DNA of 64,000 nucleotides from a virus: positions 49,888 to 113,887 of IMG/VR virus record IMGVR_UViG_3300033571_025639, one strand, 5' to 3'. Shown here one piece after another: positions 12,401-46,143 of this stretch (position 1 is the stretch's first letter; every line of letters starts with the position of its first letter). Below the pieces are notes generated by a model, which saw nothing but the letters and a program-made list of their open reading frames with translations, made no database searches and was not told where the DNA came from. The position numbers were made by a program, and so were the translations under genes.

Positions 12401-13775
12401 TATTACTAATAGCTGGTACAGCGTTGGTGCTTCCTAGAACTAGGTTATTTGCCACTGTGCCACTAAGATTATTAGTATTACCAATAATCAATGATCCTGT
12501 AATATCTTTAGTAGTATTAGCTTGTCCTACCAAAAGTAGACTGCTTGGATTGCCACTAGATAGATTATTATTAATACCAACCAAAATACTATCTTGTAAA
12601 CCACTTTGAATACTGTTGCCTAATCCAACGATAACGCTTCTATAGGAATCTTGACTTGTAATATTATTTCCAATAAAAATACCACTATTAACATTAATGA
12701 CTGATTGATTAGAACCAATAAGTATTAAGCTATTACCAGAAACATTATCTGAACTTCCATATACAACAGTATTAGTTCCAGTAAGATTAACGTAAGATCC
12801 AACAATACTATTATTATTACCAGATAAATTATTTACATTACCAATATAAATATTATAGTTGCCAGTATTATTAATATATGAGCCTAAAACTATTCCTGAT
12901 ATCCCGGAGGACATGGCATTTTGAGTTAATCCAACAGTATAGCTTGTAAGTAGTTCGTTATTTCCTCCTATCAATACGTTGTATGATCCAGATAGCTGGT
13001 TACTATTTCCAATGAGTATGTTGGATGTTCCAGATAAAGAGAGTCTATCTCCTAGCACCACATTATTATTGCCTAGTATATCTGCATTATTTACAAGGGC
13101 TAAAATTTTAAGACCATTAACATCATTTAAATTACCTATTAAAATACCACTAGTAGATAATCCACTATTATAGGATCCGATATTAGTAAATCCAACACCA
13201 GTTATGGCATTCCTACTACCAATAACTTCATAATTGTATCCGGAAATTTGATTTCTTCCACCAAGAATAACGTTTTGTAAATTAGCTGTAAAAACTGGCT
13301 TATTAATTCCTGTTTCATCAACTGTGAAAATAAGCTCGCCACTAGTAAATCCAGTAACTGGATCTAATATTCGTGACATTATTTGAGCATATGCTATTTC
13401 TCCATAGTTCGTATCTCGTCCAGCAAGATTAATTATGGCAGGATAGCTTCCACTTTGAGGGGCTGTTTGAGGATTGTGTACTAATAAAAGAGTAACACCC
13501 GTGGGACAATTAGTTATACTCTCAATAATCAGACCATCTTTAGAACACGGGGCCACAACATGGAGCACAGCATCAGGAAGTCCCGTACCAATTCCTAAAC
13601 GCCCAGCCGAAGCATCAAAATAAACTAAGCTGTTGTTGCCAGTACCAAGAATACTAAAATCAATGTTTTGCTTATTAGCATTAAAAGAAGTATTTATTCC
13701 TACAGTATTAGATAAAGTAATATCTGGAGTGAGGCCAGAACCAATATATAATATTCCAGAAATTGTTTCATTCAT
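9450..13775 (-). CDS. Tail fibre-like protein with long YadA-like beta-solenoid (1441 aa)
   Basis: Probably a trimeric fibre or tail-tip appendage. The N-terminus has a motif common at the start of phage fibre and endosialidase-chaperone proteins (GRLGIGTGLPDAVLHV, about residues 58-73). About thirty short repeats with the core N-x-(I/L/V)-(L/I/V)-G-(S/N) follow, each roughly 13-16 residues, covering about residues 162-615, with a further block near 737-792. This pattern is typical of YadA-head/left-handed beta-roll solenoids. The C-terminal 400 residues are non-repetitive, with a GHKAKMGYTYHTHAF segment and a beta-rich end (NVWNYKILVSAIWQSG), likely the trimeric tip or foot. It lies directly after the tape measure. 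A poor AAAGGT ribosome site is about 11 bases upstream. Receptor binding is inferred; the repeats are seen directly. Confidence 0.75.
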   Translation of the reverse strand: MNETISGILYIGSGLTPDITLSNTVGINTSFNANKQNIDFSILGTGNNSLVYFDASAGRLGIGTGLPDAVLHVVAPCSKDGLIIESITNCPTGVTLLLVHNPQTAPQSGSYPAIINLAGRDTNYGEIAYAQIMSRILDPVTGFTSGELIFTVDETGINKPVFTANLQNVILGGRNQISGYNYEVIGSRNAITGVGFTNIGSYNSGLSTSGILIGNLNDVNGLKILALVNNADILGNNNVVLGDRLSLSGTSNILIGNSNQLSGSYNVLIGGNNELLTSYTVGLTQNAMSSGISGIVLGSYINNTGNYNIYIGNVNNLSGNNNSIVGSYVNLTGTNTVVYGSSDNVSGNSLILIGSNQSVINVNSGIFIGNNITSQDSYRSVIVGLGNSIQSGLQDSILVGINNNLSSGNPSSLLLVGQANTTKDITGSLIIGNTNNLSGTVANNLVLGSTNAVPAISNNNLVLGVLNNQTGVYIDSAGSVSGTPRRTSGSVNNSILAGINNIITNGNSDILLGNKNSISGSNANILGSYNNLKNSSNTYNIGNSNFIVGDKIGTLGSKISVIGQESVVLNTANSKMDVFGSGNIVIGYNAAVSSGIIVGTANKTHGINNIIYGKNNTVGSIRHQFTTDSQTTFTVTVPSLNVSNKYNIGDTVLIYIQNPPSATNTFIREILDIVEDSLNTLTTITFTNSISIDNSNGYYSINNAFDDNNPPASAISGLIMPYQQGGGIGGPETNPTYGSDNIIVGSNNNYIFSSGIVVGNNNTVSGVKNIVIGYGISGVANNTLYLGTNNRNKIILDNEKMVFNSGAFQDNFIIKSSNDNTSIVNVDLNNNYFGINTNSPTADLSVSGLTSTDTIRVGFSAPDQYVLTTNTNGYGTWQLPVRISGTDNGLMYRVNNKVASGINQIQYNPTTSTMGFNLDGNNGFYITSSGLLVNDEGNIYGMRVRGSGGTDFAKTLLETNFSKNRIDFYNVSGNSGNFGNFSVSGGMILPVSLTGTFLYVDNSGKLNAYNSRAYSVLFSNGNSWATGDTSYRWFNNQSILAMGSTGVVTYDEITASGGNFDTRYNILLSSNRNIDTVFNNLGLGNNFSVLVSGQTPGSQRRGFHVASTGVVIINSSSTDTNASGNSLYVRGKTWTNSLRLGEGSTVSGLYLRVDGGGNVFSSLLDLNTQFSGFYPLATETTSLGQDNAFRVDIKFSDKDRSNNAIENGGFLIFNGNSWNLASGIKIDQSPSVTNQLKTLNGIEFGHKAKMGYTYHTHAFASSSFLDTNTVYDGSSQFAQYYLRCRTLGSTIVELTTDWAKNNATTHGRDNTISLLLNTGNSDLYDNVWNYKILVSAIWQSGTSVSGVGPRSGAGITIEGAILRSSDGSIFTKLGNETITTYSAGLPAGMGIATRLDTADQTTIPRLSIVATGVAGQTTLWSATAQINQLNYPASYNLFGNT
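11930..13290 (-). repeat. Protein-level beta-solenoid repeats in the 1441-aa fibre
   Basis: About thirty degenerate repeats of roughly 13-16 residues with an I/V-x-I-G-(N/S) core (for example SNILIGNSNQLSG, YNVLIGGNNEL, GSLIIGNTNNLSG). DNA copies have diverged, so this is an old, selected protein repeat and not a recent tandem expansion. A second short block lies at about 11400-11565. Confidence 0.85.
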
Positions 13776-13793
13776 TATATTATACCTTTAATA

Positions 13794-14108
13794 TTAAGCT
13801 ATATATTGAACACGATCAATAGAACCTTCTATACTATTGTTTAATGTATTATTAACATTATTTAGTGCAGCATTTACCTGACTAACAACATATCTCTGTA
13901 AGCCTTCCTCCATACCCTTAAATACGCTAGCTGAAGCTCCAAATTCTACTACCACAGTATGAGTTCCTTGCATATTAATAATTGGATTAATTGATTGTAA
14001 TTGACCGATAAATGCTTCAAATTTTGTGGTAAACTTGCTTAATCCATCAAAATTCAAACTGGTACTTTCACTTCTATTATTGTTAGATACACCACCACCG
14101 CCACCGGC
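13794..14108 (-). other. Tape measure C-terminal domain
   Basis: The last ~100 residues (7630-7733) follow the final linker and resemble ordinary tape-measure ends that bind the hub or distal tail protein. They are helical and then Asn-rich (VVSQVNAALNNVNNTLNNSI). This supports the gene being intact to its end. Confidence 0.7.
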
Positions 14109-17100
14109 TTCTGATGTTGCTTGACCTCCGGTGTAGAGATAGTTAACTGCACCGACCTGACCACCATTAGCATATCTATTATTATTAATAGCTCTTAATA
14201 AGGGTAGATTAGCTTGAGTTGCCGAGCGATTGACCACAAATTCGCCCGGAGTTAACATTGCTGGCACAGTGTCAGTTCCCCTGGGACTATAAGGAATCAT
14301 CATTCCATTATTAGCATAAATAATACCTCCAGCACTATCGGGTACCGCATCAACAACGTTTGTGTTCGACGGAGCAGCTTGGCTCTTAAATTGAAGTTGA
14401 TCATTAACTCTTAATATGTTCCAAGCTTGATCAAGATTTTGAGCTGCTATTGAACCAGCTTGTAATTGTTTTTGTAAAATAAATAATATGGGTCTATTTT
14501 TTATCTGTCTGCCTTTACCTGCTGGATATTGGTCTAATATATCTAATCCTTCTTGTGCATTAGCTGTCATATTATTTAGAACTTTGAATGTCTCAAGATC
14601 AGTATCAAATAATGCTTTAGCTTTTGAGGCTTTAGCATCACCAGCTAGATCTTCCCATTTACTTCGTCGTTCTTTAACAATATCTTCTACTTTTAATTCA
14701 TCTCGTATTGCATTTGGATTAAAAAGTTCGAACCTTTCTGGGTTTTCTTCAACTTCTTTTGAGAGCTTAGTATATAAAGACATGAATGGACTACTATTAT
14801 TTTTATAATATTGAAGTTCTGCTTGTCTGTCCTTTGCTTTTTTATCTTTTTCTGCTTTATTTTGTTCCATTGTCTGTTTATCTGCATCTGAAGATTTTCC
14901 CTGTACTGCGGGAACTTCGGCTGGTACGGTAGCTTCGTTTTCTCCGGATATTTCTCTTTCTTTGACCGGAACTTTAACACCTACAAGATCATCACTAGCA
15001 TTCCCATTATTTTGCTTTTGTTGTTGCATAGCTCCTTCTATAACTGCTTCAGCACGAGCTCCTCTTAATCCCGGATAATTTTCACCAAACCACGATTCTG
15101 CATCATCAGAACCTGACTCTAAATAATCTCGAATATATTTATTTTCTAAATTACCTAATTTAACTTTATCTTTTATACCCTCCTTCACACCTTGTGCTTT
15201 CATCTCTTCTATTTTTTGAATAAGTCCTTCAAGCCTTGGTTGTTTTATGCCGGGTAGATTATTTGTAAACCATTCTTCAGCATTTTCTGCTCCTGATAAT
15301 AGAAAATCATTTATATATTTATTATCAAGATTAGTTCTGCTCTTTTCATCTTTCATTCTTTCTTCTTGTAGTCTTTGTTTTCTTTCAACATTTTTATTAT
15401 TAGCTTCATCCCATGTTGGATCACTTCCTCTAAGATTTTTTAATTTCTTTTCCTGCTCATCTGTTCTCTTTTTAGGATCAATTCCAGCTAAAGCAATTCG
15501 CGTATTTTTCTCTCTTCTTGCAACATTATCATCACTATACCAGCCGGTTTCTGTCCTAAGTTTTTCTAAGCGACCCTGCTGCTCTTCGGTTCTATTTTTA
15601 GGATCAATTCCAGCTAAAGCCATGCGCTCTCTTTTCTTTCTGTTCATTTCTTTTTCATCATTAGGCAGGCCAGCTCCTACAACAGCACCCTCTTGAGCAT
15701 ATAATATTCCACCCTTACTCATATATTTTTGTCCATTATTAATAGCATGTAATAATGGAAGATGTTGTTCGGTGGCTTTAGCATTAACCACAAACTCACC
15801 CGGAGTTAACATTGCGGGAACGGTGTCAGTTCCACGAGGTTGATAGTTTACTAATGTTCCTGTTGATGCATATATAACTCCACCATTAGCTTTTGTGACT
15901 ATAGGCTTACCCTTATAGTATACTCTTGGTTCATTAGCGTCAAATGGCTTAGTGGGATTTAGGGGATCCTCTTTGACGGGTATCTCAAAAGGGTTAGGTT
16001 TTTCTTGTTCTTTTACTAAAGGCCAACTTCTCTTTCTAAGCTCTTCAGTAAGTCTTGGAAATCTTGGTAATTTAATATTGTATTCTTTATTTATTCTGTG
16101 AGTATACGGCTTGCCATTTGCTTTTACTATCGCTTGTTCTATTAGTTTCTTAGCTTTCTCAGAGTTTCTACCTAAAACTTCTTCCATCTGTTCTGGAGTT
16201 GGATCAGGTGGAAGGCCTAGGAAGCCCAATGCTTTGATTTCTTCATCTTTTATTTTTTTGGTATATTCTTCTTCAAGTTTTTCTTTTCTTCTAGTGTCTA
16301 ATTTGGTAAGAGGACCGGGCATTCCCCCATCAGCAGCATAAACTACTCCACCCTTATTAAAGCCCATAACTTTCATCATAGCTCTTAATGCTGACTCTCC
16401 TCCGTGTTTATTAAAAAGAGGCTTATCCATAACTTGTAACATTACTGGAAATATTTCGTCTTTTTTCTTACCCATTAAGCTATGTCCAGGATAAGTGTTG
16501 ATTGCTTGGTATTCAGGATCCTTAGCCATTTTAAGAACAAAACTTCTTACAGCAGATGGTAATGTTGCTATTTTACCATCCCCACCGCCTGTAAGTTGTG
16601 ATTGTTTGTCAGGTGGTAATGCTCCTTGAATAGTGTGACCCAGTTCATGATCTACTAACCCTCTACTTATTAAAGGTTTATTAAAAACTATGTTACCAGT
16701 AGTTCTTTCAGTTCTACCCAAATCTCCATCACCCACAGGTGTCATTCCAGTATCTCCAACTCTCATAGTAGCATTTTTATATCTAGCTCCAGTAAGAATC
16801 TTGTTTAATGCTGCTCTGCCTTTGTCTCCAGAAGTATATTTTAATAATTTGTGTCCTAAAGTTTTTTTAGCGTCTTCCCTTTCGAATCGATTTTCTATAT
16901 TGACCATAGTATCTCTTCGACCAAGAGCTTCCTGAAAAGCAGGACTATTAACGTAATCTTTGTTAGACAGGCCAGTCTCAAGAGGTGTTGGAGAGTCGCC
17001 AAGGAATGGCTTGGCAAGAGATAGGTACTCGTACATTCTCCTAGGACTTGATTTACCTCTTTCGATAGCCAAATCAGTAAGAACTTCTGATACTGCGTTG

Positions 17101-20100
17101 TTTTCTCGACGAACAGGCGGCGGCATAGCTGGGCCCTGAATAGGCTTAACATTCCTTCGACCAAGAGAATTTAGAAAAGCAGCAATCTCATTTTCGCTTG
17201 CGCGAACTGGAGGTACACTAATGTGTCCGCCGTCCTGACGTTTTCTTCCGGCTAATGCATCAATATAACTCCACTTTTTGAGCATCTTTTCGCTCGGGAC
17301 AGGTCTACGTCTGCCATCTCGTAGAAACATCATCTGCTGTGCAAGGGCCGATTTTTGAGGAGCATCGCCTATGCCGCTCTTACGTCCTTCACGAATCCGC
17401 TCGACCATAGCGTTAAGGTTAGCCTCATGTCTCAGTGCGTTATCTCGTTTCGTCAGACCGCGCTTAAATATATCGGTAAACTTCTCCTCCGACATAGCAG
17501 CAAATCGTGCAGCTTTAGCATCAGTCATGGAATCCCGAAAGTCCTTCTGAATGCTAGCGTCTAGTGTTGACATTCCACCATCACTAAGATAATTAATTAA
17601 CCCACCATTGCTGCTATTAATAGTTTGCAGTAAGGGTAAATTAGCTCGTGTTGCAGAGCGATTAACAACAAATTCTCCAGGAGTTAACATAGCCGGAACA
17701 GTATCAGTTCCTCTGGGAGAATATGGCATTAATTGACCATTACTAGCATATACAATTCCACCACTATTAAAAAGATTAGCCGCATTTGTAGCTTCATTGT
17801 TTAGATTTTTAACTTGATTTTTTCCTAAGGCTCCCCTAAAATTTGATCCATTAAACAAATCATATATAACTGCAATAATTTTTTTAGTATTTCCTAAAGC
17901 ATCGAGTTTTTGTGAATATAATAAATCTTTCATACTATTTAGAGTTTGAAGAAGAATATTATTATCACTATCTATTTTATTAAATCTATTATCATTATCA
18001 AGATCAGGAATAGTATTATTCTTTAAATTAGGATTAATCCTAGAAGAACTATTAGAATTTTTATTTTTAGTATTAGTTGTCATAGAGCTTAATACAGATC
18101 TTGCTACAGATAGAATCTCCCGATTACCACCAGCAATACCTTCGCTAAGATTTTCTGTATTTTGTGAAGTTTTATCAACTTTGCTAAGTCTATAAGCTGT
18201 TTCTCTAGTATATCGAATTTTTTCTTGTTCAGTCCTAAAATCAGAAGATGTTTTAGCACTCTTTTGTGGACTTGGGACTCCAACCTGTGCTCCATCTGCT
18301 AGATAAACTATTCCACCATTACTATATCCAGGAGCACTGCCTTCGTTAATAGAGTGTAGTAGTGGAAGATTTCGAGCTGTGGCTCTAGCATTAACTACGA
18401 ACTCTCCTGGAGTTAACATGGCAGGAACGGTGTCTGTGCCTCTGGGTTGATAAGGAATTAGCATTCCATTACTAGCATAAATTACTTTTTTGCGAGTTGA
18501 TCCATTATTGACCTTTTTGTAAAAATCATTCTCTTGCTCTTCGGTTGGTTTTGATAAACGACCGTCTTCGCCGAAAGGTATAAGGGTATTATACATGTCA
18601 ATATGACCAGCAAGTGTTGGATCAGGCACATCGTAATAATCTTTATATTTGCCTCGCCATAGCTTGGTGTAAACTCTATCTTCAAAATAACTTTCTGGAA
18701 CAGATAGTCCTCTTAAAGTTTTTTTTGTTAAGTCTTTTTTATATTTTCTTCTATCTCTTGCTTTTGTTATTAATTTTTCCGCTTCTTCACTCCTTTGTTG
18801 ATCTTCTGCCATCTCTTTAGAATTAAGTTCATTTTTTAATCTATATGTTTTCTCTAAAGAGTCTAGATTACTATAATTAGAAGAAGATAATTTATAATCC
18901 TGCCATATAGTTTCAAATACATCTGCTTTATTAATTGTTGCCCAGCCAGATTTATCAAGTGTATTATCATAATTAATGTTAGCGTTATGCAAAATATCCT
19001 GAGGGCGAGTGAGATCTTTAGTGTATGCTTTATTCACTAATCTTGGAAACAAATAAGGATCTTGTTTAATTTTAATTCTCAAATAATCAAGTTCTTCTTC
19101 AGCTTTGACGAAAAGACCCCAATCTCTGTTGTTTTGATCAGATGCTAGATCAGCTAGAATTTGTCTTTTTTGTGTAGGTTCTGAAATTCCTTCAAGTTTT
19201 TTTATGCGTGGAGATGCTATATTTTCCTCTAAGTATTCTGAAGCCTTAGTAAAAGAATCGGGATATAATTTCTGAAAATCTTCTTTAAATAATGATTTAA
19301 CTGATGAGATAATAGCTTTATCTATCTTATCATAGGCCAATTTCTGAGAGCCACGACGATCTCTTTGTGTTCCTAGTGTGTCTCCTAATTCTTTTCCTTC
19401 TCTCTCTGTGTCTATATCAGCATATCGTAATGGTTTACCAACCATGTTTGGGAATTCTGCTGGATCTATAAAACCATTCTTCTTGTTAACATCTATTTTA
19501 TCAAATAATATTTTTCTTTCAGCTGTCTCAACTTTAAAGCTCTTAGCTTTAGGATCTCGTGAGCCTAAGAATCGTCTATTGTACTCTGTAAAAGAAATTT
19601 TCCCATCTTTATTATCATCCCATAGATCAAGATCACGAATAGCCGACCTTCCGCGACCATTGGCCATCCTGGCTCTATTTTTTCTTTCTGTGCGTTCAGC
19701 AGAAGTTTCTTTTCCGTTTGGTCCAGATCCAGGGATTGCGGCATCTTTTACCGGTTCAATCAATCTATCGTGCATAATTCCAAGTTTAAATTGTCCTGGT
19801 CTTGCTACGTTATCTTCTCTTCCTCGAAAATTTTCAGGAGTTCTGGTCTGATCTTTATATACTGTATTACTATCTACTCTAGCCATATCTCCATATGCAG
19901 TTTTTCTGACTGAAGCATCAGATCCAGAAAATAATGCTCTAGCCTTGATAAGATTATTAATACCTTGAATTCTAGCAGACTGAGCTAGCAAAGAATAAAT
20001 AAGAGACTTACCCTTGCTTCGTTTGGTTTCTCCCTCCATTCCGATCATAAAAGCTTCGGGACCATTCTTAATAAGGTTTTTAACAGTATCAATAAGAGTA

Positions 20101-23100
20101 CTAGCATCAGCAACTTTATCTCCGGGAGGTAATTCAATGCCAAGAAGTTCAAGTCTAGACGACTCCTGTCCTGTTAAATCACTTGCTTTACGAGCTGGTA
20201 ACAGTTCTTGAATTTTTTCAGCGGTACTTTTAGCTAACTCAGTGTTTTCTAGCCAAGATACTAAATTTTCCGTATCTGGAGTTTTTTGCTTAGTAAGAAT
20301 ATCTTTTACAACACTGGCAACATTGATATCATCAAAATTTCTATCAAGATAAGGACGCATTGGCGTTTGTGACTGCTGGATATACTGTTCCAGAACTTGT
20401 TGTGACTTTAATCTATTTTTTTCTTGTTGTCTCTCTTTTTTCCATTGACTTACCACAATATTTAGTAAAGCTGCAGGAGACTCATAATGATTTCTATTTT
20501 TAAATTCTGGATTATTATTCTCTCCCGCGGGCTTTTGATCAGAAAGAATATCTCTTAGATTTTCTAGATCAGGAGTTAAATTTTTAACAACTCTTGCAGC
20601 AGATGATTTTGCCTTGAGCTTGGCTTTTGTTGTTCTCCATTTAACAAGATCTTTTGGTTGAAAATCACCACCAACATCAGGATCTATTAGTCCTAAAATT
20701 CCATCAGTTTTAGATAGATGGGTTGTAAAATCAAACCCACTAAGACGATTATCTTTATTATAGTCTCTATATTTAAATCCTTTAACAAAATCATATGATA
20801 AATCTTGAAGACTTCTTAAATCAGTAGCTTCTCTTATTTGAGTTAAGGCCTTATAAAAAGAAGCGTCGCTAAAGAAGCGCATACTATTGGCGTCAAAACT
20901 TAAATTATTTAATGAGGTTAACCAATCGGGCATCTTTGTCTCTAAAGTTAGATAATCATATATGCCAGAATTAATCCTATATTTTTTACCAAGATCATCA
21001 CCCTTCTCAAGAGTTCTATCTCCTGTTAATGGATTCATTGATCTATGAGAAATTCCTCCTTCACTAAGATAAGCTACTCCACCCTTACTTAATCCTTTAA
21101 CTCCTCCATTATTAATAGATCTTAGTAGAGGTAAATTCTGAGCAGTTGACTTGGCATTAACAACAAATTCTCCCGGTGTTAACATGGCTGGGACAGTATC
21201 TGTACCACGAGGTTGAAAATTTACAAACTGACCTTCTGAAGCATAAATCATGCCTCCATTAGCCTTAAAGGTTGGAATCGTCGCATTTGCCATCATTTTT
21301 TCAGTAAAGTAATTAATATCTGGAATATCTCCATAAGTGGAGCTTAATCCAAGGTCTCTATTAGCAACAGATGCTTTGTTTCTCAGATCAACACCTTCTG
21401 GAGTTGATAGCGACGTTATTAATTTAATAGTTCTGGTTTTAGGATCAGATCCTTGATCAAAGAATGAGTCTTGACCTGGCCATTTATTTTCTCCACCATA
21501 CCAACTTCTTAAAATCTTTAGATTGCTGGTAATAAATGCTAATGTTCTAGGATCATAATAGGACATGCCTGAGCTATCTCGACCAATAGAGATATCATAA
21601 CCTAATTTATTAATTAATGTAGTTCTAGTATTTGTATTAGCAAATTCATTGTAGGGATTTAATCCTAATGAGACAAGATCATTATAGTCTTTTGGAACTT
21701 GGTCTTTAAAGTCTTGATATTGTATTGATCCATCAGCTCCGATAGAAGCAATTTTTGTTCCTTTTAATTGTCCCGCTATTTGTGATTTAAAGTCTTCGCT
21801 TAATTGACGACTGGCGGCTTGTTGGAATGCCATACCCATACCCAATGAACGAAATGCAGTTTCAAAGTTCCCTTCTGCACCATTAGTCACAGATTGAAGA
21901 AATCTAGTATTGCCACTAGCAATGCCATCAAAAGCACTATAGGCACCACTTAATAGAAGATAAGATTCTTTCATATTTTGATATTGTTGAGGACTATTAG
22001 CCATGTTAGATAATTGACTAACATCTGTTGCAGCTTCGTTGAATACTCCGGCAATATATCTTGATGCTTCAGTAGCATCCAAATCATTTCTTACGGGCCT
22101 TCCTCCTACTCCAGGAAGTCCTCTTATGTCATTGAATAGCCAGCCATTAGCGAATCCGGGAATTTTTCTTCGTCCAAAAAGTGATAATGCCCCTCTGGTT
22201 ATTTTGGGGAAATTTTGGACAAGATTAGTTAAAGGTGTTGATCTTGATTGAGCATTAACAACTGTCTGACCGCTCTCCTTGGCTTTATTTTTCCTAGCTT
22301 CCAAAAGTTGCGGTATAATATCACTTAAAAAATCACCAATTGGAATATCAACTTTACCAATAGGATTATTATTTGCAAATACATTAATATTATCATTTAC
22401 TCCGTCTGGCCTATTGCTGCTCTTCAAATAAGATTCTAGATCTATACTAGCCGTAGTATTCCTAATTTTAGCTATAATATCATCTTGGTTCAAAGGGGCG
22501 TTTGGATTATTAATAGAAGTAATAAGATTTTGAATATTGGGATCATTAACTAAATTTAATGGATTAAATATATCAGTTTCTAATAATTCAGCATTTCCTT
22601 TAAAATAAGAATGAGTATTATTATCTAAATTTTTAAATGGATTTTTTGATGTTCCACCAGATTGTATTAGATATACAAATTTATTACTATCAGGTAAAAA
22701 TTCTCTGTTTCCAACAGCATCAATATTAAATCCTAAATCGTCTTGTTTACCAGATCCATTATATCTTGGACCCCTATACTTTAAATAACTCATCTCATAA
22801 GGAATATTCACACCACCAATTGGTGTTGGAAGTTTTATTGTGTACGTTGCACTTTTTGGTCCAACCAACTCTTGTGAAAATCCAAATTTTTTGCCAGTTA
22901 AAGTTTCTTTTCTATCTTTGTCTATTTCAGCTTTTATTGATGTTAAGAATAGTGATGGGTCTGTGTCTCCTATCCATGGAAATTCTTTTTGTTGTTTCAT
23001 ACTATTAGTATCGTCTAATATTCCAATATCCATAGGAATATTTCCAGCCCAAGCTGGTTCTTGTTTAGCTCTTCCACTAAATGCTAGCTGTATTTTCTTA

Positions 23101-26100
23101 AATTGTGACGCATTACGGAAAGTATCAATATCACGAATACTATTCAGTTTATTTATAATATCTTGATTATATTTCTTTTTAAGTAAATATAGCGTTGATA
23201 TATTTTCGCTAGCTCCCAAACCATCAAAATCCAAACTAGAATCATTAGCTCCAAAAATTTCCATAGATGATCTATCATTATAGATATTACTTAATTTTTC
23301 AGCAGTTCTAGCAACTGATAAATTTTCAGATCCTTTTTCAAAGGTTGCCTTTGTTGGATCAATTGCAAAATCTAATGATTTTTGGAATGTTATTCTGTTT
23401 TCATTATATTTTTCTTTTAATGAAGAAGCATTTTTTTGTATCCATTCAGCGCCATTAGCTGAATAACTTTCTGGCGGCACAAATGTATCACCACCACCAG
23501 ATTTTATAGCAATACCCTTACTTGATGCATTAGTACTCACTATAGAATAAGATCTACCCAAACTACCACCCAGTCCAGCACCTCCAGCAGTACCAGCAGC
23601 TGCAATAGCTAAACCTAATGGTATTCCGGCACCTAATGTGCCGATTGAAATAGCCGCTGCCGATAAACCCGCCAAAGCTCCTACTCCGATACTAGCATTA
23701 GACAATATTCCATAAATTTTTAAAATATCTTTAGTATCATCATCTGATGAAAAAGCGGATGGCTTAAATTCTTTATTTGTAGATAATATAAGACCAATTG
23801 GTTCAGATGTTTGGCTAGTTGGCTTATACGGATCACCACCAACAGCAGATGGAGGATTTCCGTTAAAACTTCCTTCCGTATTCCATAAATTAGCTCTTAA
23901 AGTATTATTATTAAATTCTATTAATTTTTCTCTATAAAATTTATTATAATCTTTTCTACTAACATGATCTTCGTTAAATGTATTGCTATTAGTAGCATTA
24001 GATAATACAGCACCAAGTTGACCCATTTCGTTAACGTCAAAACGAGGATTGCTATTATCATATGCATAACCATTGGAAACCATTACTATGTTTGGAGCAC
24101 TACCTGCCATGATAGCACTGTCTGAGTTAGCCTTAATACTACTCTTACCAGAATCATAAAAATCTGCTTCTGGTGCTCCTGCCTGAGATCTTATGGTTGT
24201 TCTGGGACCTTTATAAACATACTTAATTAATGCTGTATTTAGATCATTCTTAACAAATTTTGGATCCAAATATTTTTCTTTTGTACTTTCTAAATTTTCA
24301 GTATCTTTAAATTCGTTTTTGGTTAAGTTAGACACATAGCCACCGGAAGCATAATACCTAACGGATCCACCGCCACTATACTTTTTACTATTAATAGCAT
24401 TTAATAGTGGTAGATTAGCCTGTGTTGCTGCTCTATTAACCACAAATTCTCCAGGTGTTAACATTGCTGGAACAGTATCTGTTCCTTGAGGAGCAAAATC
24501 AATACCCATGCCAGCAGCAGCATAAATTACTCCTCCGGATGCTTTACCAACAGGAGGATTTGGATTTTTTGGTATTTTAGCATTAATTTCAGAAACATGA
24601 TTATTAAGATCTTTGAGTTGAGCACTATCGAAGCTTAACACTGTACCTTTAAGAGCATCAACTAAAGCCTTAGCCGATTTATTAGCAAGCTGATTTGATA
24701 AAGTTTCATCCATTCGTGCTAATGATTGATTAGCTAGTGATTGTAAATTATTGGCTTGTTTATATTCTTGAATCGCTGATTGTGTTGCTGGATCAGCTTG
24801 TGGATTTCTTAAAGTATTAAGAACTTGCTGGAATATTGGAGAAACACCCACCCCAGATTCTTGCAACATGCTTTGTAATACATCGGCTTTTATGCTATTT
24901 CCTTGTTGAGAATTACCTAAAAACGGCAATATATCTTGTAGAGCACCAAGGGTCTCTTTTCTGTCATTAGCAAATGCTGCTTGAGCAGCTTTCATAGCTT
25001 CAAATCCAGAGGCACCCTGATCTATTGCTTCTCTATAGGCTTTTTGAGCACTTTGTGAATCTCTAATATCATTAATTTGTCCTCTCATATTATTATTTAG
25101 TCTAGCAAAAGCACCATTCAAAGAATTGAGTTCTTCTGGTGTACTTGTTACTAGTTTTTCAATAAAACTAACTCTTCCAGACTGTTTTTGTTGTGCTTGT
25201 TCTATTTTATCCATAGCTTCAGCGGCAACATCTGTACTTTCAGCCAACATTTTTAATGCTTCTATATTTTGTCTTAATGCTGTATTAGTACTAACCATCT
25301 CTGTTTTGAATTTAATAACATCCTCAGCTCCTGTTGCACCTCTAGCGCCAGCAGCATTAGATGCGACTTCTAGTGATTCACGTCTAGTATTTAACGAAAA
25401 AATATTATTTTCAATATCAGTAATATTGGTAGATCCACCAGTAAGAGCAGATACTTTTGCGTCTCTTATAGTTTTTGCATTAGTTGAGTTATTGGTTTGT
25501 CCTAATGCTTTATTTAAATTAAGAGTTGCAGATAATTGAATATCTTGAGATTTTATTAATCTACTATTTCTACTAACTTGTAGATCTGTAATTTTATTAA
25601 TATTATCGCTATACATATTAAGTGCATTTTGATAATTTTCTAATGCTTTTACGGCAATGTCTTGAGCTTGTTTTGCGGTATCTACAACTTTACTTAGTGA
25701 ACCTAGTTTATTATTTAGATCAGCAAAATCAATTTTATTATCACCTTCTGTTCGCAATCCTTCTAATGCTTTAGATACTTCTTTACTTAGTTGATCTGAT
25801 AGATCTGGTGGTAATGATAATCCTTCTAAAGCACTTTTAACTTCACGATCAACTTTAGTAGCCAGTACTTCGTTATTTATTCCTGGTCTTTCTCTTAAAT
25901 TTTTATTAAGTGTTGACATTACTGTTGATTCTATAGTTTCGCCAACTCCTAATAATCCTTTCATTACTTTAGCATCAGCACCAAATAATGATGCAGCATC
26001 TCCTCTTGCTTTTTCAACCTCTGGCTCAGAATAAGCTCTTTGGTTTTGCAAAATATTTGCTGTTGCTATCTGCGACTTGCCAGTTTGAGCTTGTCCAGTA

Positions 26101-29100
26101 AGTGCCGAGGATAAAAGGTCAATATCATTTGTCATTTGACTAAGAGAGAAGCTAGCTTTGCCAATAGCTTGCTCCATATTAGCAAACATTCTTGTAAACG
26201 AACGACTGAAAGTATTAGTTGTATTCTCTAGATCTTTTTGTGCCAGAGCATTTTGTGTTGCTGCAATTTTTTTCCTTACCTCAGACTCAGCGTATGCTTG
26301 CATAACGCTAGCTTTCCTAGATTCTCTTTCTTTTTCTTCGATACCGATCATATTTTCTATGGTAAGTATTTCTTGTTCTGTAGCAGCATTTGATCGAGCT
26401 ATTGCTTCTCTATGTAGCTTCCATTCAGCACTATTTTCACTTACTAATTCATTAATATCTGTTCCACTTTTAACTTTACTCTCAAGTAATTGCATTGTAG
26501 CATTAGCAGTATCAGCAAAAGCCTTTGAATTGGCTTGAGCTTCTGCTGGTATAAGTCTTTGAGTACTAGATTGTGTTGCTTGAGCTGCGGCTTCAGATGG
26601 ATTAGTAAAATTACCACCTAACATTTGTCCATATGACGTAGTACGCATGTAGGCTATTGTTCCTTCTTTCTCCAAAATTTTTGACCTCGCAGCTGCTCCT
26701 TGATTACCTTTATTTTCGAAAAAGAAAGCATCGAACATATTAACCCAAAATGCTTTTGCCGTATTTCTATCTATTGATAGACTATTTTTAACTTGATGAG
26801 TAGCGTCTAATAAATTCTTAGTAATTTCTTCTTGCAGTTTTATATTTTTAAGATCTGTACCAAGTTTTTCCAAACCTTTGGATACTTTTTCCAAACTTTC
26901 AGCCGCTTTGTTTGTTGCTAATTTTTTCTCAAATTCAATTGAAGCATTACGAGCATCCATAAAAGCTTGTCCAGCAGCTAGTGCCGCTGTAGTTAAGAGA
27001 GAAATTGGGCCTAGCAATCGAGTCATTGATGGAAACATTTCCATTATATTACTACCGATCATGGTACCAGTAGCCAACATATTTGTACCACCCTGCAAAC
27101 CAGCAGATAACTGAGCATTAGAAGAACTAGTCTCTGGATTAATCTGTTGTGCAATTAGTGAACCTGCCATTTGTAGACCAAAAGCCATGCCGATGCCTCT
27201 GGTAACACCACTTCCTGCGCCGCCTCCGGGACCAGCTGCTCCGGCAGCCATGGCGGTGGCTCGTGCAGTATTGGCTCTATCTCTTGCTTCTTGTTCGGCC
27301 ATGCGCAATGCTTGAGCACTTAATCTGCGCATCGCATTTCTATCGCCAGACACACCTCGCTCCGCGGCCAACTGTTGTCTGATTTGAGCGGCTCTCTGCG
27401 GTATATATGTCATGTCCATTTGAGCTAAAGTATTACGATCCTTCATACTCTGTTGAATATATCTTTGAGCATCATCTCCGGTTAAACCAACAGCACCAAG
27501 GTTGACTCGTCCACCAGTCACTTGAGTAGTTGCTTGTTCGTAAGATTGTCTATTAATTCTTCCTGCTCGTCTTTGTAGTCTTTCTTCAACTTGCTCATCA
27601 GAATATCTTCTTACTGTTGCTCCTCTACGAGTTCTAGTTTGAGATGCTAGTCTATTCCTCTCTGTTTCTGTCATTTGTTGACGTAATATATCAGCTCTAA
27701 AGTCTATTTTTTGTAAGTCTTGTCCACCTAAACTACCTAAAGAAGCTCTAGCTCCACCCGGAGTATCTACAGATGCTCTTCTTGCTCTAATATCTCGGTC
27801 GGCTTGTTGTCTAATGTTTCTTAACATACTTTCGGCAGCAGCTATCTGTTGAGCAGAGGCTCCTGCTATTCTGGCTCGTCTAATATCGGCTTCTGTGGCT
27901 TGAATAGCTTGAGCGTAGGTTGCCTGAGTTCCTCTTTGCATAAGTCTTGCGGTATCTCCTGATGTGACACCAAGATCTTGTAATACTGTTGCTAGTTGTC
28001 CTAATTGCTCATTAACAGTATTAACTACTCCAACAACTCTTTGAGCTTCAGCATCATTCATTCCACCAAGATTCGGCCTAGCTGCTGGTGGTGGATTTAA
28101 TAATCCTCCGATAAATAATCTTTGAACAGCTCCGCCAGTTGCAAACTCTTGAGTGCTAACTGGACCACCAACAGAACCACCATTCCTAAGTCCCAAAGCC
28201 TTAGTTGCTTTTTCTCTAATAATAAAACTACCAACCGGCAAATTAGCAGGAATACTATCACTAGTGCCAGTTCCTGGCCCCTTAATTACACTAATACCAC
28301 CACTAGCAAAACGACTCATGCCATTACGGTCTGCTTTATTCATTTGTGCTAATTTACCGTATCCTATTGCTCTTGCTGTTTCTGGTGGAACATAGGCTTC
28401 TCCATTACTAACTAGTGCCGGCACAGTATCCGAGGAATGTCCACCACCAGCAAATTGAGCCATGCCACCAACGGCATATTTTCTTCTTTTAATTCCAGCC
28501 CCACCCAATAGTTCTGTTAATGTAGAATCTAATATTGATTGTAATCTATCGTCTAATCGTGGAAGATTTTCGATTAAAGTTGTTAAAAATTCTTCTTTGC
28601 CGCTATCTTCCATTCTATCAATAACTTCTTGAGTAGTTCCAAACTTTGGCCCTCCCTGAAGCAAGGCTTGGTTGATCTTGGGATTAATTGGCCTATACTC
28701 TCTGGCTCTTCTGGTAGTTCTAGCTTGCATATTCAACGCAGAGAGATCTTTTGTCATATCCACAGAAACAGGAGTAGCATCTCTAGAAGAATCACCCAGA
28801 GTACGGTAATAATTTGAAAGCATTTGATCCATAGATCTTGACTTATAACTCCTACCATATACAACATCAGCACTAGAATATCCACCATTTGCTGTCAAAG
28901 CATCAAAAGCATCAGCTAAATCATTATTATCTCCAGAAAATAAAGATGACACTCTGCTTCTATATCTATTAAAACTATCTGCTGATTTTGTTCTTAGTCC
29001 TTGAAATAGCTGATGTGTCATTTCATGATACAGTACGTCGTTCTTAGTGTCGCTAGAGTATCCCATAGAGGAAGCAAAACTTAAGGTTCCTCGACCAGTA

Positions 29101-32100
29101 GTTGCGGAAATGGCTTGTTGCTCAGACAAAACCGACTTTTCTGCTGCAGATTTGACCTTTGATAATTCGAATGATCTCTTTTTTAAGCTGTCTAACTCAC
29201 CATTAGCTTTCTGATATGCATTACTATCAAAAGAGAAACTACCGTCATCAAAAGTTTCAGTCGGTGTTTTGGTAATCTTCTTAATTTCTTTTTCTTTTGT
29301 TTCTATTAATTTTTTTAATCCATAAGCTTCTTGTTTTTGTTTTTCTCCATACCCAGATTTAGATAGATCATAACCTTCATACGGCCTAACTCCAGTTGCA
29401 TCTCTTTGGAATTGAGCAGAGCCGTACCCGGATAGACCTCCTCCTCTTTTGCTTGCTCCGAAATCTAGTTGTAATGGTAGAGCAACAGTTAAATCTTCTT
29501 GTGGCAATCCTACAAACTTAGCAAAATCTGACATTCTATCAAAGAGCGTATCGCGACTAATTTTTTCTTTGAATGATGCTGTAAATCTAGCCTTATCAAA
29601 TGGTTGCTGAAAAGATTGTTTAACTTTATCATCATCAACCATTATTCTTTCATTTTTAGGATATTTATCCCATGCTAATTTAGCTCTTAAGTTTTCTTCA
29701 GCTGTTTGTTGGTCTTTAGCATAGGCCTTTGATATGCTAGGGGGAAATATAGTTTCTCCGGTTCCAAAAACTTCTTTTGGTTTTCTGGTTTTAGTTGCCG
29801 CTCCACCGGCCATAAATTTTTGAACCATTCCACCACGGTTTAACATTTTTACAGCCCAATCCATATTGAGCGATTCAAGAATGTTACCACCCTCCTCACT
29901 GTTGTCGTTAGCCTCTATATTTTTTACTTTAAATTTAGAATTTCTTGGTAGAATATATTCTACTTCTATATCATAATCGTCAGCATAATTTTCATCAGCT
30001 CTACCTTTGCCCAAAGAATCAGCAATGAGTCTCTGATTTGTTTTTCTTATTTTTGATTTGTCTCTGTTAATCGTATCTGTCTTGGCTCTCTCTGGATTTA
30101 ATCCTTTGGCTTTTTTATTCGTTTCTATTGTCATCATGCCTGTTCTTGCAAAGCTTTCTGCTGTAGCTGGCACCTCTGAAGTAGACAAGAAAGAAGGGAT
30201 GCTAACAGTTTTTCCAACTAGTTTTTTTGTATCTTCTAGTTTATTAACTTTTACGCCAGCTGATTCTATAAATAATTTTTGCTTACTAGCTCCTATGCCA
30301 CTGTATAATTTTTCTGGTAATGAAAATTGCATCGCAGCATCTAATGATCCAACAAAAGAAGATAGTGGCTTATCTACTGCTGGACCAAGCTTTTTCCTCT
30401 CTGTTTTATTCAAACCTGACGTATCGGCTAATGACTGACTCAAGTCATCTTTCTTGCCAAGAGCAGTATTAATAGCTGAATCTAAGCCTATTGCCTGATA
30501 TGCTCTAACGGCATCTAACATATCGCTAATGCTATAGCCTTTATTAGCAGCTAGCCTTTGAGAATCTTTTCCCTTTAGTTTTTTAACTTTGTCGATATAT
30601 TCAATATCTTTTTCTAGAGAACCCACAGACACATCAATATATTCTCTATTCGGAGCGAAACTAACTATGCTTTTTGGTCCAACCTTATCCATATTCTGTT
30701 GTTTATTTCCCGGTCCCAAATTTCCCTTATATGCTTTATTTAGTGCTTGTTTAACAACACCATCATAATTTCCTGTTATATCATATATTTGATTTTCTTC
30801 AATTAACGACTTAAGATAGTCAGAAATGCCAGATGGAGCTTTGGGTAAAACTATTTCTTTTTTGGTCTTTTCTTTTTTTTGCGGAGTTTTGCTAGCTAAA
30901 AACTCTTTGATAGAAGATATTCTTTCTTTAACTTCTCTGATTCCAGCATCTTCCATGAAAGGGGCTGATTTACTAAATGTACTAACTGGAACCTTTCTTT
31001 GAAAACCAAATAAGTCCAATGTAGAATCGAGCAAAACTAGTTCTTTATTAAGGTCTTTTGGTGACTGCTGCTGCATTCTTTTAACCCAGCCACCATCAAT
31101 AAATCTTTGGATCAAACCACCACTATTTTTAGCTTGTGCTACTCCACCAGCCATAAAGCTTTGAACAGCTCCGCCATTATTAAAGCCTTTCACATTTTTA
31201 AGATATGTAACAATATTATCTTTTATGGTTGATGGACCAGCTAGTGTTCTCTTAACATCAGTTGGTATATTAGGAGGTAGTTTTGGTTCGAATTTTTGTG
31301 AGACTCTACCAAGACCAGTCATAAAATCAAATCCTCTACCCTTTGGAGATCCTACTGCCCCTAATCTTCTTATAAATGCTTCTAATAAACTACCTTTAAG
31401 TGATTCTATATCTTCTAATGATTGTGTATCTTCTTTTAGCTTTTTAACTCCTCTATATCTATAAACATCAATTCCTTCATCGGCTCTTTTCCTAGCAACA
31501 GATGTATTTCTTTTGTCGTCATCAACGAAAATAGATCCTGGAGTTAGTTCTGCCGCTTTAAGTTTTGCAATATCCGATCCTGAAACGTTTGGTCCACCAA
31601 ATCCTTTGAACTGGCCAGCTTGTATTGGCAAACCTTTGCTAGTTAACCATGTTTGAATTAAAGGAAGTGTAGCTTTTGGTCTTGCTGTTATTACTCGTAT
31701 GTTTTTTAATAGTTCTGGTTTTTTAGCTACTAAAGACGCTAACTGACGACCTAGTACACTTAGTTTAGCTTTACCCAGAGCCTCGGTCACTTTGGCAGTA
31801 TCCGAAAATTCACTAAATCTTGGTTGCTTCGGATCTGCTAAAATTTTATCAGCACCAAAAGCTAATGTTCTATCAAAATCTAGTGCTAGTTCTCTACCAG
31901 ACTCAAATCCTCCCAATATCATTCCAACTCTTTTCTTTTGAGCAGTCATCTCTGATCGTTTTTCTTTTTGAGCTTGTTGCATTGGTATAGTGCCAATAGC
32001 TTTATCAAAACTAGCATCTATGCTACTAGCTCTTTTTTGATTTTTATATATTCCACTATAAATACTGACTGTATGTTGTTTAGTTGGATCTTTTAATCTA

Positions 32101-35100
32101 TTATCTTGTATAGTTTGAGTTACTGGTTGGGCTGCAAATGCACTTCCAAATAGTCCAGCAGCACCAAATACTAATCCTTTAGCTGTTGCTTTATTTCGTT
32201 TTCTTGTCTCGCTAGCTTCTGCTTTCTTTGCTAATGAGGTTTTTTCTTTTGTAAATTCTGCTAGAATAGCAGCTTTACTTGCTGCTTGTTGTGGTGTGGG
32301 TTTGGTTGTTTTTAAAGCGGTATATACATCTGTTGCTCTAATACCTCCAACAGCAGCTGCTCTCTCTATGCCCAAGAGTTTAATAATGTCTCCGGTTGAA
32401 GCTTTGACTGCTGGAGTTGCTGTGCCTCCTTCTTCAAATCTTTGAGTAGCCCCACCAGAAGATCTTCCCAGTCTCTCAATTTTAGGAAGCATTCTAGCGG
32501 CTCTTCGTCCTAAAATCGCTTCGTCTCTATCTCTCTGTTCCCTTAGATACTTAACTCTTTCTGCAACATCGAGTGGCGTTTTTGCAGTAACACGAGCTGG
32601 TAGCGTTGATAGTTCAGCAAGTGTTGATGAGTATCTTCCTGCTCTTCCTCTTCCTTTCTGGGCATTTTCTTCTATTCTTTTAAGAATAGCATCTAATAGT
32701 TTTGGTCTTTTTTGTATCGTCGCCATATAAGGCTTTAAATAAGCTATTCCTTCTGGAGTCAGAAGTTTTTTCATAGCTTCAACATCATTGCTCATAATGG
32801 CTGCTCTAGCAGCAGTACCGCTAATTCCGTCTCTGGCTATTTGTATTGACTTATAGCCCAGAGAGAGATTTCTACTCACAGCAGCGTCTGTTTTATCATC
32901 CCCCATATATGCAACATTACCATCGCCTTTTGGAACAATATAGGAGTCTTCTTGTCCTTCAATCTTAAAGGCCTTAGGAAAAACTCCTGGAGCAATTCCT
33001 TTTGGCGCAGCTGAGATGTTGAATCCTTTTGATCCTAAGACTGCTTGAGCCATTCCTACTGCTGATGGCCCAGTAGATGATGTTTGAGGCAAAATTGCTG
33101 TTCTTTCTTTCTGGTCATCTCTATTAAAAGGATCTATAGGAGTATTTCCAGAAATATATATCACAGTGTCTTCTGGACTAATTTTACTTTTCTTAGCCCC
33201 TTGCATAATTGCTTCGACATGACCAGCTGTGGTTGGTCTTAAAGCTCCTTGAAAGACTGCTGTTTTTTTCGGAGTTCTTACATTTGGAGCACCAATTCTT
33301 TTACCAGTTGCAACATCGGTTGTTATAACCCTTTTGGGATCAACCCCAGAAACTTCAGAAGCTGCTAACCATGCTTCATCTATGCCGGTATCAACGGGTG
33401 CGCTCTTAGTAGCTCCTGGTTTGCGCTTAAATAGTCCGTAGTTACGTCCAGATGGATCAGGTATTCCGGATTCTGATCGTCTGTCTCTATCATCTCTTCT
33501 AACTAAAATTGCATCTTGACTAGCTTTAGATCTACTAGAAAGATTTCGTATTCTATCAGACGCTATTAAAGAAGCAGCATTTCTAGGACCCAATACTGAA
33601 GTTGTATCAATAACTTCATCTAGTCCTTCTAAGTCACTAGGAACTCGTATGGCTTTTCTAGTTGTCTTGCGGAGTCTAGCATTATCTGCTTCTTGAGATC
33701 TTGAACCCCCGTAAGCTGCTGTAGTTTTACCACTTGCGGCAACCCCAAAAACGGTTCTTAGTCTGCCTATAGCTCCAGACTTTCTTCTTTCCGCTACTAG
33801 ATTCGACATATAAACTTTATATTCATCGAGCTTAGCAATGCCCATCATTTTCATTTGAGCAGCAACGATTGGATCTTCTTTCCAGTCATCAGAATCAATA
33901 ATTCCAATAGTACGAGTACGACTAACTGGTTTTACTTCTCCACCAATGGGAAATCTCTGAATAGATCCACCAAGATTTCTTCTGCGAGATATTGCTAGTT
34001 CTGTAGCTTTATCATAAGCTCTTTCTTCTCTTCTTCGAATATTTCTTGGATTTTGACTTAATCCAGTTAATTTTTGAGTAGATTCCTGTCTGTCTTGGGT
34101 TCCTTTACGATCCCCTCTCGCTATCCTTTTCCAGACAATATCTGCTCTATTTTCTAAATATAGTTGTTTATCTGCTGATAATAGAGGCCAAAAATTATTA
34201 GGAATATTTTTAAGATCTGAATCTTTTACTAATGGTTTCTTAGGAATTTTTTTTGTAATAGTATTAGCAAAAATTTGGGACGTAATACCATATGCCAGAT
34301 CCGATAACTTTATTCTATCCAACGATCTTCTACTGCTTTTTTCTAAATGACCAGACAATAAAACTTTCGGATGACTTATCATCCAAGCAGCAAGTTTAGA
34401 TGAAATAGTCCCTGAGCCAGAAGACTTCAATGCTTGGTTTGTTAATGTTGGTAAACTAAGTAGTATTGGAGATTTTTGTGATATTCCAATTTCATCAATA
34501 ATACTTTGTAATTGTTTATTGCTTGCTTCAGATATATCTGGTATCTTAAATTGTTTTTGCGCAACATCAAGACTGGGTGTAAGTTTACTGGATCTAGTGG
34601 GGGTATCTCTTGAGATACTTGAGCCTTTAGCCCTGACCTTTCTATTTAAATATTCTCTAAATTGAGCTGGGGTTAGTGGGGTGCTATTTCCGAAATGGGC
34701 CAGGTCTGTCTTACCTGGATACTCTTTCCATGATTCAAGGGCATTATCTGGTGGTTTTTTCTTATTTTTAGATTTTACACTTTTTACTATTCCTGATTGA
34801 TTAGTAGGATTTCTTTGGTTAAATCTTTGTATATCTGATGAATATCTATTCACAGAGGAACTAGGAGTAATTCCTCCGCTATTCCTATTCAAAGAGTGTA
34901 AATTACTAACCCCAATATTTTGTACAGCGCTCTTTCTCATGACAAACTCGCCAGGAGTTAACTTTGCAGAAACAGTGTCTCCATTACCAAAACCAGTAAC
35001 ATATCCACCAGCAGCAAAATGTCGAATTGGACCACCCTCAGAGGCTCTTTGTGTCGGCGCTCCTCTAAATCCTCTTCCAAAACCACCAGCAAACTGAGTA

Positions 35101-37971: not shown

Positions 37972-37972
37972 A

Positions 37973-38296
37973 TTAATTATCCTTCCTGTTTTTGTTATTT
38001 TCTGGAATTACTCTAAAGTTATAATGATATTTATTCTTAAATAAACCACCATATTCATAGAAGTCATCTGCAACTTCTCTCATTTGTTTATTTCCATGAT
38101 TCAGGATCTCGTTCCTGGTAAACTCCCATATATCAGCAAAATTTTCTTCTTGTGGAGTTAATTCACCATCTTTATCCTGTCCCCATAAAAATCCAAAATG
38201 ACGTTCCATGCGGGCCAGAGCGCCAATCATTGTTGTTTGTATTCTTCTCTTCATATAGAATTGTAATCTATCTGGATTATACATGTCATTATCCAT
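37973..38296 (-). CDS. Small tail-assembly-position protein (107 aa)
   Basis: A short, helix-rich protein (DRLQFYMKRRIQTTMIGALA; ERHFGFLWGQ) with no known catalytic motif. An AGAGGA ribosome site overlaps the last codons of the preceding gene and the ATG follows that stop by two bases. A second in-frame Met at residue 5 is a less likely start. It sits in the block of small genes between the tail tube protein and the tape measure, so a chaperone or minor tail role is likely. I recall similar proteins in uncultured aquatic phages. No stronger statement is possible. Confidence 0.55.
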   Translation of the reverse strand: MDNDMYNPDRLQFYMKRRIQTTMIGALARMERHFGFLWGQDKDGELTPQEENFADIWEFTRNEILNHGNKQMREVADDFYEYGGLFKNKYHYNFRVIPENNKNRKDN

Positions 38297-46100: not shown

Positions 46101-46143
46101 AATTAACTCCAGTGTTTAATATTTAATACCCCGTTAGGATAGT

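Follow-up and report, generated by a model that had tools for sequence, protein, structure and literature searches.

Very large proteins of phages and conjugative elements that combine several unrelated enzymatic domains, including ADP-ribosyltransferases (ARTs) and metallopeptidases, have been described as polyvalent proteins, and their entry into the host together with the DNA has been proposed (Iyer et al. 2017, PMC5512222). Phage T4 carries an ADP-ribosyltransferase, Alt, in the head of its virion and injects it (PMC5512222). In contractile injection systems, the experimentally studied effectors Tme and Sle1 join a tape-measure-like body to an enzymatic or exchangeable domain and are ejected through a tail-like tube (PMC11126660, PMC13277306). 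A large mosaicism survey reported sequence mosaicism in tape measures but was unable to confirm genuine recent cases (PMC10684548). We describe a tape measure protein (TMP) from a family of uncultured giant phages, in which enzyme-like modules lie between repeated joints. It is encoded in a stretch of 64,000 nucleotides (hereafter the window, whose numbering is used throughout), positions 49,888 to 113,887 of the 113,887 bp IMG/VR virus record IMGVR_UViG_3300033571_025639. The protein resembles polyvalent proteins in its size and in its several unrelated enzyme-like domains, among them ART-like and metallopeptidase-like ones. Unlike those proteins, the carrier is a tape measure, a term whose first word is absent from the main text of PMC5512222, and its joints are repeated; its ART-like domain matches PF03496, whereas the ARTs discussed there belong to the HYD2 clade. 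Tme and Sle1, as described in the sources cited, are bacterial, involve no viral DNA and carry a C-terminal functional domain, whereas the present protein belongs to a phage and holds two cassettes with ten inter-joint modules. In contrast to the head-packaged Alt, the ART-like domain here is a tape measure module without the arginine of the catalytic triad. The mosaicism is visible in the DNA, with defined joints and with synonymous divergence (dS) far below that of the core.

The protein of 7,733 aa is encoded by a single unbroken frame on the minus strand (13794–36995). Its aa 1–650 match tape measure families above the cut-off (PF10145, 1e-24; TIGR01760, 2.6e-25), which upholds the assignment made in a preliminary description of the window. 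That description placed a string of modules at 14229–35045; the layout of repeated joints is as it stated, while the extent is larger, since the frame runs from 13794 to 36995. A second record of the same phage (228,972 bp) encodes an N-terminal core (N-core) that is 100% identical. The protein is a tape measure with a standard N-core, a central segment and a C-terminal tail (C-tail), together with two variable cassettes. It was compared within a set of 28 TMPs, comprising the window protein, 26 full proteins of 53 loci and the protein of locus L063; 27 loci were left out by eye, namely L008 (same phage), contigs cut short and near-copies. Clustering of the inter-joint segments recovers the following scaffold parts.

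35046..36995, minus strand: N-core (tape measure domain), aa 1–650; PF10145 and TIGR01760; one cluster, 28 of 28 TMPs.
24546..28103, minus strand: central segment (named 'coil' by eye), aa 2965–4150, scaffold; clusters in 27 of 28 TMPs.
13797..14180, minus strand: C-tail, aa 7606–7733, scaffold; cluster holds 21 of 28 TMPs.

Across the 28 TMPs, the end of the N-core falls at 532 ± 41 aa (range 506–644) and the central segment spans 1,179 ± 164 aa (604–1,540), whereas cassette 1 varies from 208 to 2,306 aa and cassette 2, taken as everything past the coil, from 389 to 4,729 aa. The total length accordingly covers a threefold range (2,435–7,794 aa). The N-core and central segment are a conserved scaffold, so that the picture of a string of cargo modules applies to the cassettes and not to these two parts.

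Two types of joint divide the chain. The bracket, GG-x-hQxF-xx-GG (h, hydrophobic), occurs 10 times in the window protein and 116 times in the 28 TMPs, against 1.5 expected from residue shuffles, and chance repeats are thus rejected. The linker profile, a hidden Markov model (HMM), picks up nine linkers in the window protein, and none of the 28 TMPs is without a match, the hits being partly by construction since the profile was made from 98 seeds of the same proteins. Six core linkers lie where they had been reported (14229, 15783, 17661, 18390, 21156 and 24435) and are of the cassette-2 type DTVPAMLTPGEFVVN; five read PRGTDTVPAMLTPGEFVVN exactly, and the sixth, at 24435, carries PQGTD. Three diverged copies had also been noted and were found at aa ~673, ~2857 and ~2908. 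DNA identity among the six core linkers is 76–90% over 51 bp. Because the copies differ in DNA, and as the architecture recurs in other contigs, an assembly artefact was rejected. The joints are as follows.

34884..35045, minus strand: linker at the core end (GDTVSAKLTPGEFVM), aa 651–704; linker HMM, E 6.6e-14.
33939..33971, minus strand: bracket GGSIQRFPIGG, aa 1009–1019; bracket scan.
32424..32456, minus strand: bracket GGATQRFEEGG, aa 1514–1524; inside a low-confidence stretch (508–527) of the structure model.
31089..31175, minus strand: double bracket GGAVQSFMAGG / GGLIQRFIDGG, aa 1941–1969; both letter for letter in L063.
29802..29834, minus strand: bracket GGMVQKFMAGG, aa 2388–2398; exchange boundary.
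28104..28478, minus strand: two diverged linkers and a bracket preceding the central segment, aa 2840–2964; linker HMM and bracket scan.
24387..24545, minus strand: linker C1 (PQGTDTVPAMLTPGEFVVN), aa 4151–4203; linker HMM.
21108..21266, minus strand: linker C2, aa 5244–5296; linker HMM.
18342..18497, minus strand: linker C3, aa 6167–6218; linker HMM.
17613..17771, minus strand: linker C4, aa 6409–6461; linker HMM.
15735..15896, minus strand: linker C5, aa 7034–7087; linker HMM.
14181..14336, minus strand: linker C6, aa 7554–7605; linker HMM.

The two types had been given one uniform role. Both exist, but they occupy different places: 75 of the 80 strong (class C) linkers follow the coil match, five fall within 90 aa of its end and none precedes it, whereas 78 of the 116 brackets lie before the coil, six inside it and 32 after it. 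Class C linkers show no positional orthology, and their likeness within one protein equals that between proteins (0.804 versus 0.802; 80 copies, 22 TMPs), so that no homogenisation within a protein is seen. Ordinary tape measures carry the linker singly, as had been stated: at E 1e-3, it was found in one place in each of 24 isolate records, some of which are duplicates, and more diverged second copies could escape at this sensitivity. The tape measure of Nodularia phage kac65v162 has a single TPGEFV-type linker, whereas the window protein has repeated ones. Another ordinary tape measure (PF10145/TIGR01760), yomI of SPbeta, shares the N-core domain.

Cassette 1 comprises, in order, a module of unknown function, a P-loop and nucleotidyltransferase module, a haloacid dehalogenase (HAD)-like module, an ART-like module and an HExxH metallopeptidase-like module.

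33972..34883, minus strand: module of unknown function, aa 705–1008; no Pfam family and no relative in the 27 other TMPs.
32457..33938, minus strand: predicted P-loop and nucleotidyltransferase module, aa 1020–1513; confident model except residues 165–193.
31176..32423, minus strand: HAD-like phosphatase module, aa 1525–1940, DFDRTL at ~1706; invariant motifs, HAD chains in Foldseek.
29835..31088, minus strand: ADP-ribosyltransferase-like module, aa 1970–2387; PF03496, 9.1e-7.
28479..29801, minus strand: HExxH metallopeptidase-like module, aa 2399–2839, HEMTH at 2657; H-E-H invariant in 5 of 5 rows.

The preliminary description had named coiled coil alone as an outcome contrary to its reading; structure prediction of aa 1005–1960 instead gave alpha/beta domains (mean predicted local distance difference test score, pLDDT, 76.9). 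The nucleotidyltransferase model superimposes on NadD (5vir) with Z 15.3 and a root-mean-square deviation of 2.8 over 160 aa, and NadM is best in Foldseek. Phosphopantetheine adenylyltransferases (CoaD) tie with NadD (Z 14.9), so that the fold match is neutral as to substrate; the 50 Foldseek matches listed for the same model also include a complex of polynucleotide kinase (4xru). The Walker A Gly-Lys, the GH histidine (H240) and S-x-T-x-x-R (S373, T375 and R378) are invariant in 10 of 10 rows. By predicted fold and by the GH and ISxTxxR motifs, which we take to mark the HxGH nucleotidyltransferase superfamily, the module fits that superfamily. A P-loop domain in the same chain is shared with NadR (as described in PMC9503650), but it is N-terminal in the window module, unlike in NadR. 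In the HAD-like module, the D-x-D-x-T, Lys and DD positions are invariant in 9 of 9 rows, [T/S]ARP is also present, and the HAD chains 1u7p and 2go7 are among the Foldseek matches listed. As judged from the alignment, it carries the DxDxT, Ser/Thr, Lys and DD set that presumably defines HAD phosphatases.

The ART-like module scores 28.8 bits against PF03496, above the 23.4 cut-off. This family exceeds its cut-off in 5 of 23 records (among the five are the phage of the window and two near-identical records), and all seven matches lie within the TMP frame. Among 14 ART-like copies, STS or STT is found in 12 and an ExE-like motif in 13, the last being doubtful; the sequence-profile match to Vis is weak (E 0.025). 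A separate case is the 7,794-aa tape measure of L011 (L011:12734-15481), which holds two separate ART-like modules, both above the PF03496 cut-off. The metallopeptidase-like blocks of a second model, covering the ART-like and metallopeptidase-like modules, have pLDDT mostly of 65–89 with some dips, and a fold search with this model returned no useful match for either. Pfam and NCBIfam gave nothing above cut-off for the HAD, nucleotidyltransferase or metallopeptidase modules. HExxH occurs 12 times in the 28 TMPs against 0.1 in shuffles, with seven copies in cassette 1, five in cassette 2 and none in the core or coil. The catalytic motif names are those that we take to apply. On fold and motif, four cassette-1 modules appear enzyme-like, as had been proposed, and the polypeptide would thus combine several disparate enzymatic domains in the manner of polyvalent proteins.

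For cassette 2, the signs of the proposed enzyme-like character are limited to an HExxH motif and EF-hand-like motifs. This cassette has five mostly unassigned modules between the six core linkers.

21267..24338, minus strand: module 1, aa 4220–5243; related segment directly past the coil in 7 TMPs, including the window protein.
18498..21077, minus strand: module 2, EF-hand-like, aa 5307–6166; related segments in L011 and L025.
17772..18341, minus strand: module 3, aa 6219–6408; one L014 segment, at the looser threshold only.
15897..17612, minus strand: module 4, HELGH at 6783, aa 6462–7033; motif, no family above cut-off.
14337..15734, minus strand: module 5, aa 7088–7553; weak relatives of the C-terminal part in L010, L011, L014 and L025.

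The EF-hand match of module 2 is below cut-off in the window and stronger in some relatives. The Pfam scan covered 10 window segments and 89 relative segments, the latter being those aligned (one shortened) from 98 in single loci, with nine left out together with 16 segments across joins of two loci. Across the 89, PADLOC returned one weak match and PHROGs two weak TMP matches. Pfam, the one library searched for them, gave no match to ArdC-N or LPD domains, which we take to be typical of polyvalent proteins, in either group of segments, and DUF4157, which Tme/Sle1-type effectors have as a domain or in a partner, has no match in the window TMP.

Brackets and linkers are the points at which modules have been gained or lost, put in another order or exchanged from phage to phage. 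The swapping of modules between related phages at joints, which had been raised at the outset, is supported by DNA identity, match ends, the occurrence of both orders and the dS contrast. The ART-like modules of the window and L063 share 90.6% DNA identity over aa 1956–2398, against 71% in the core; the match begins 3 aa ahead of one bracket and stops at the next, and the module follows HAD in the window and precedes the P-loop/nucleotidyltransferase in L063. For this pair, dS is 0.28 in the module versus 1.58 in the core. Corresponding values are 0.20 versus 1.03 for HAD-metallopeptidase (L032/L043), 0.71 versus 1.31 for nucleotidyltransferase-HAD (L046/L063), 0.41 versus 1.69 for HAD (L009/L011), 0.48 for HAD and 0.67 for nucleotidyltransferase versus 1.09 (window/L010), and 0.57 for cassette 2 versus 1.46 (window/L011), in pairs selected for high similarity and with core dS above 1 near saturation. 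Twelve non-core matches exceed the core by more than 4 points, and 20 of their 48 ends fall no more than 12 aa from a joint; random placement gave 4.7 ± 2.0 ends and reached 20 in 0 of 2,000 trials. Considering all 133 matches, 159 of 532 ends are near joints against a null of 53.8 ± 6.6, and at least three of the remaining ends resemble decayed brackets by eye. The matches in this test depend on one another, the coil contains some of them, and alignment ends may be drawn to conserved joints, a weakness from which the dS contrast is free.

Scans with modules alone found 28, 32 and 57 loci, 117 in total including the window's own phage and contigs matched by several queries. The same open reading frame (ORF) contains the N-core in 111 of them and the N-core or linkers in 116. 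In 50,697 phage records searched by tblastn at E 1e-3, the nucleotidyltransferase, HAD and ART plus metallopeptidase modules were unmatched. Sixty-three non-redundant TMPs fall into 22 architecture strings, five of which have no coil match. They were gathered partly with module queries, so that module frequencies are biased; many ORFs end at the locus edge, where modules may escape notice, de-duplication left out the 11 of 145 ORFs without the required motif, and several ART-like matches are weak (52–67 bits). Among these TMPs, each of the six pairings that the four enzyme-like modules allow is seen in either order, with ratios ranging from 14:1 for nucleotidyltransferase/HAD down to 7:6 for nucleotidyltransferase/metallopeptidase, although some minority orders (HAD before nucleotidyltransferase, metallopeptidase before ART) come from a single ORF. 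All 89 placeable modules lie between the core and the coil, which gives cassette 1 a module library of its own; 12 further modules belong to ORFs that have no coil match. The ratio of nonsynonymous to synonymous divergence (omega, dN/dS) is 0.11–0.25 in seven module comparisons from selected pairs. The tested modules are under purifying selection, with their catalytic motifs intact except for the ART arginine.

These findings suggest a tape measure that has turned into a modular cargo carrier, whose modules would be delivered at infection, a reading that we hold to be somewhat probable. Delivery is favoured because of the enzymatic types of the modules, their near-absence outside tape measures and the precedent of Tme and Sle1. 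The joints would serve as flexible seams between modules, and the linkers, also present singly in ordinary tape measures, might act both as docking or threading elements and as sites where recombination yields an in-frame product. During infection, the modules would be threaded through the tail together with the tape measure; folding may follow in the envelope or cytoplasm of the host, with activity there ahead of phage gene expression. There, the ART-like, nucleotidyltransferase/P-loop and HAD-like modules could modify host macromolecules or nucleotides, while the metallopeptidase-like modules could cut host proteins or free other modules from the polyprotein.

Several points weigh against this reading. 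The phage is known here from sequence alone, so that we infer carriage in the tail and delivery at infection. Folded domains of 150–400 aa should not fit the tail lumen beside other copies, and the modules would have to thread unfolded because the lumen is narrow. The pattern-based scans may miss standalone module copies. Ten of the 63 TMPs have none of the four modules, and none of these is therefore essential. Most cassette-2 modules are without known relatives in Pfam, among the window and 89 relative segments. The triad arginine was not found in the ART-like copies: in the 11 of 14 with an LYxG-type pattern, the position, placed by a motif that we take to apply, holds Ser, Thr or Ala, and the other three lack the pattern. 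Catalysis is uncertain because this Arg of the R-S-E triad was not found, hence the term ART-like. The assignment itself rests on sequence since the ART is poorly predicted in the second model (mean chain pLDDT 48.4). A NAD theme, combining the NadR-like pairing with the ART, is attractive but not supported. Nicotinamide phosphoribosyltransferase (PF04095, NadV-type) is absent from 9 of 9 large records, which weakens NAD salvage, and with the NadD/CoaD tie leaves it unsupported as the single cargo theme. Finally, pLDDT backs the flexible-seam role of the joints only weakly: of eight stretches below 50 in the first model (aa 1005–1960), five fall inside modules and three coincide with brackets, two of the three being ends of the chain.

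Alternatively, the modules might act in the virion or envelope, in envelope crossing or tail protein processing, with nothing entering the cytoplasm. The abundance of HExxH and its confinement to the cassettes are consistent with such a role, as are the envelope-degrading labels on some isolate tape measures (for example, 'transglycosylase' on SPbeta-like yomI) and the match of the endolysin-labelled phrog_971 to the linker stretches of the window (1.3e-14). However, the nucleotidyltransferase, P-loop and HAD folds are generally associated with nucleotide or phosphate substrates, expected inside cells, and no lysozyme or peptidoglycan hydrolase family was found by Pfam in the 10 window and 89 relative segments, making this explanation improbable. 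Excision of the modules during assembly, for use elsewhere such as in the capsid or the producing cell, is decidedly unlikely: the in-chain metallopeptidase-like modules could cleave the chain, and polyvalent proteins have been proposed to process themselves in this way (PMC5512222), but the cassette-1 metallopeptidase is present in 17 of the 63 TMPs, and other modules are found without it. It is less likely still that the modules are spacers, the whole chain measuring a tail lengthened by inserted domains. Tape measure length usually follows tail length (PMC11126660), and the total protein length varies threefold; yet the core and coil differ little in length while the cassettes vary greatly, and the folded modules are predicted to be globular, keep catalytic motifs and are under purifying selection. 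Most improbable is a functionless mosaic, with recombination at repeated linkers importing passenger domains that do little: linkers without positional orthology or homogenisation fit free recombination, but also strong constraint, whereas the low omega, the invariant catalytic positions and the recurrence of four module families in many TMPs oppose it.

The tape measure gene stands in a tail gene cluster: several of the 10 neighbours scanned have tail fibre or baseplate PHROGs as matches, and five have no PHROG match. The sheath family PF04984 is unmatched in 9 of 9 large relatives, whose records may be incomplete, and a contractile tail is improbable on this basis. The terminase has distant relatives (23–25% identity) in Slash, Stahl, MaeS and similar phages; owing to both observations, the phage is probably a siphovirus. 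Six metagenome-assembled genome contigs from mixed groups point to no consistent host, and the window contains no tRNA. The N-core relatives L199–L204 come from contigs that were assigned to genomes of bacteria from several unrelated groups and are probably misbinned phage. Tail assembly chaperones are expected directly upstream of a tape measure gene, the place of two small ORFs (37087–38296, minus strand), the larger of which has no PHROG match. Downstream, a protein of 1,441 aa (9450–13775, minus strand) bears many short Gly-Asn repeats, (I/V)G..N..SG, and is adhesin-head-like by eye. A giant protein of 4,061 aa (48690–60875, minus strand) is collagen-like near its start with long beta-repeat-like sequence by eye, and is probably a tail fibre or adhesin. 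Two proteins (43734–47529, minus strand) contain lectin-like Laminin_G_3 domains, and in the one at 46144–47529, which matches baseplate wedge PHROGs, they are joined by fn3. A further protein (42799–43737, minus strand) carries Mtd_N (PF18454, 1.5e-11), a domain of receptor-binding proteins diversified by retroelements. The reverse transcriptase family PF00078 is unmatched in 5 of 5 large records, and a diversity-generating retroelement behind this protein was rejected.

A literature search of open-licence texts gave, among the titles and abstract openings listed, no account of an enzyme-module tape measure with repeated joints. Multi-enzyme injected phage proteins are known, and we rate their housing in a tape measure as new. 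Whether the protein amounts to a reloadable injection vehicle, with a shared module library and two fixed bays from which effectors and counter-defence enzymes would be delivered before gene expression, is in our judgement evenly balanced. The joints allow effector modules to be listed by sequence, any inter-linker segment being a candidate injected protein, including several without known relatives. If delivery holds, the tail tape measure would be an added delivery route beside the head-packaged injected proteins of phages, and phages would have a natural counterpart to the effectors that contractile injection systems derive from tape measures.

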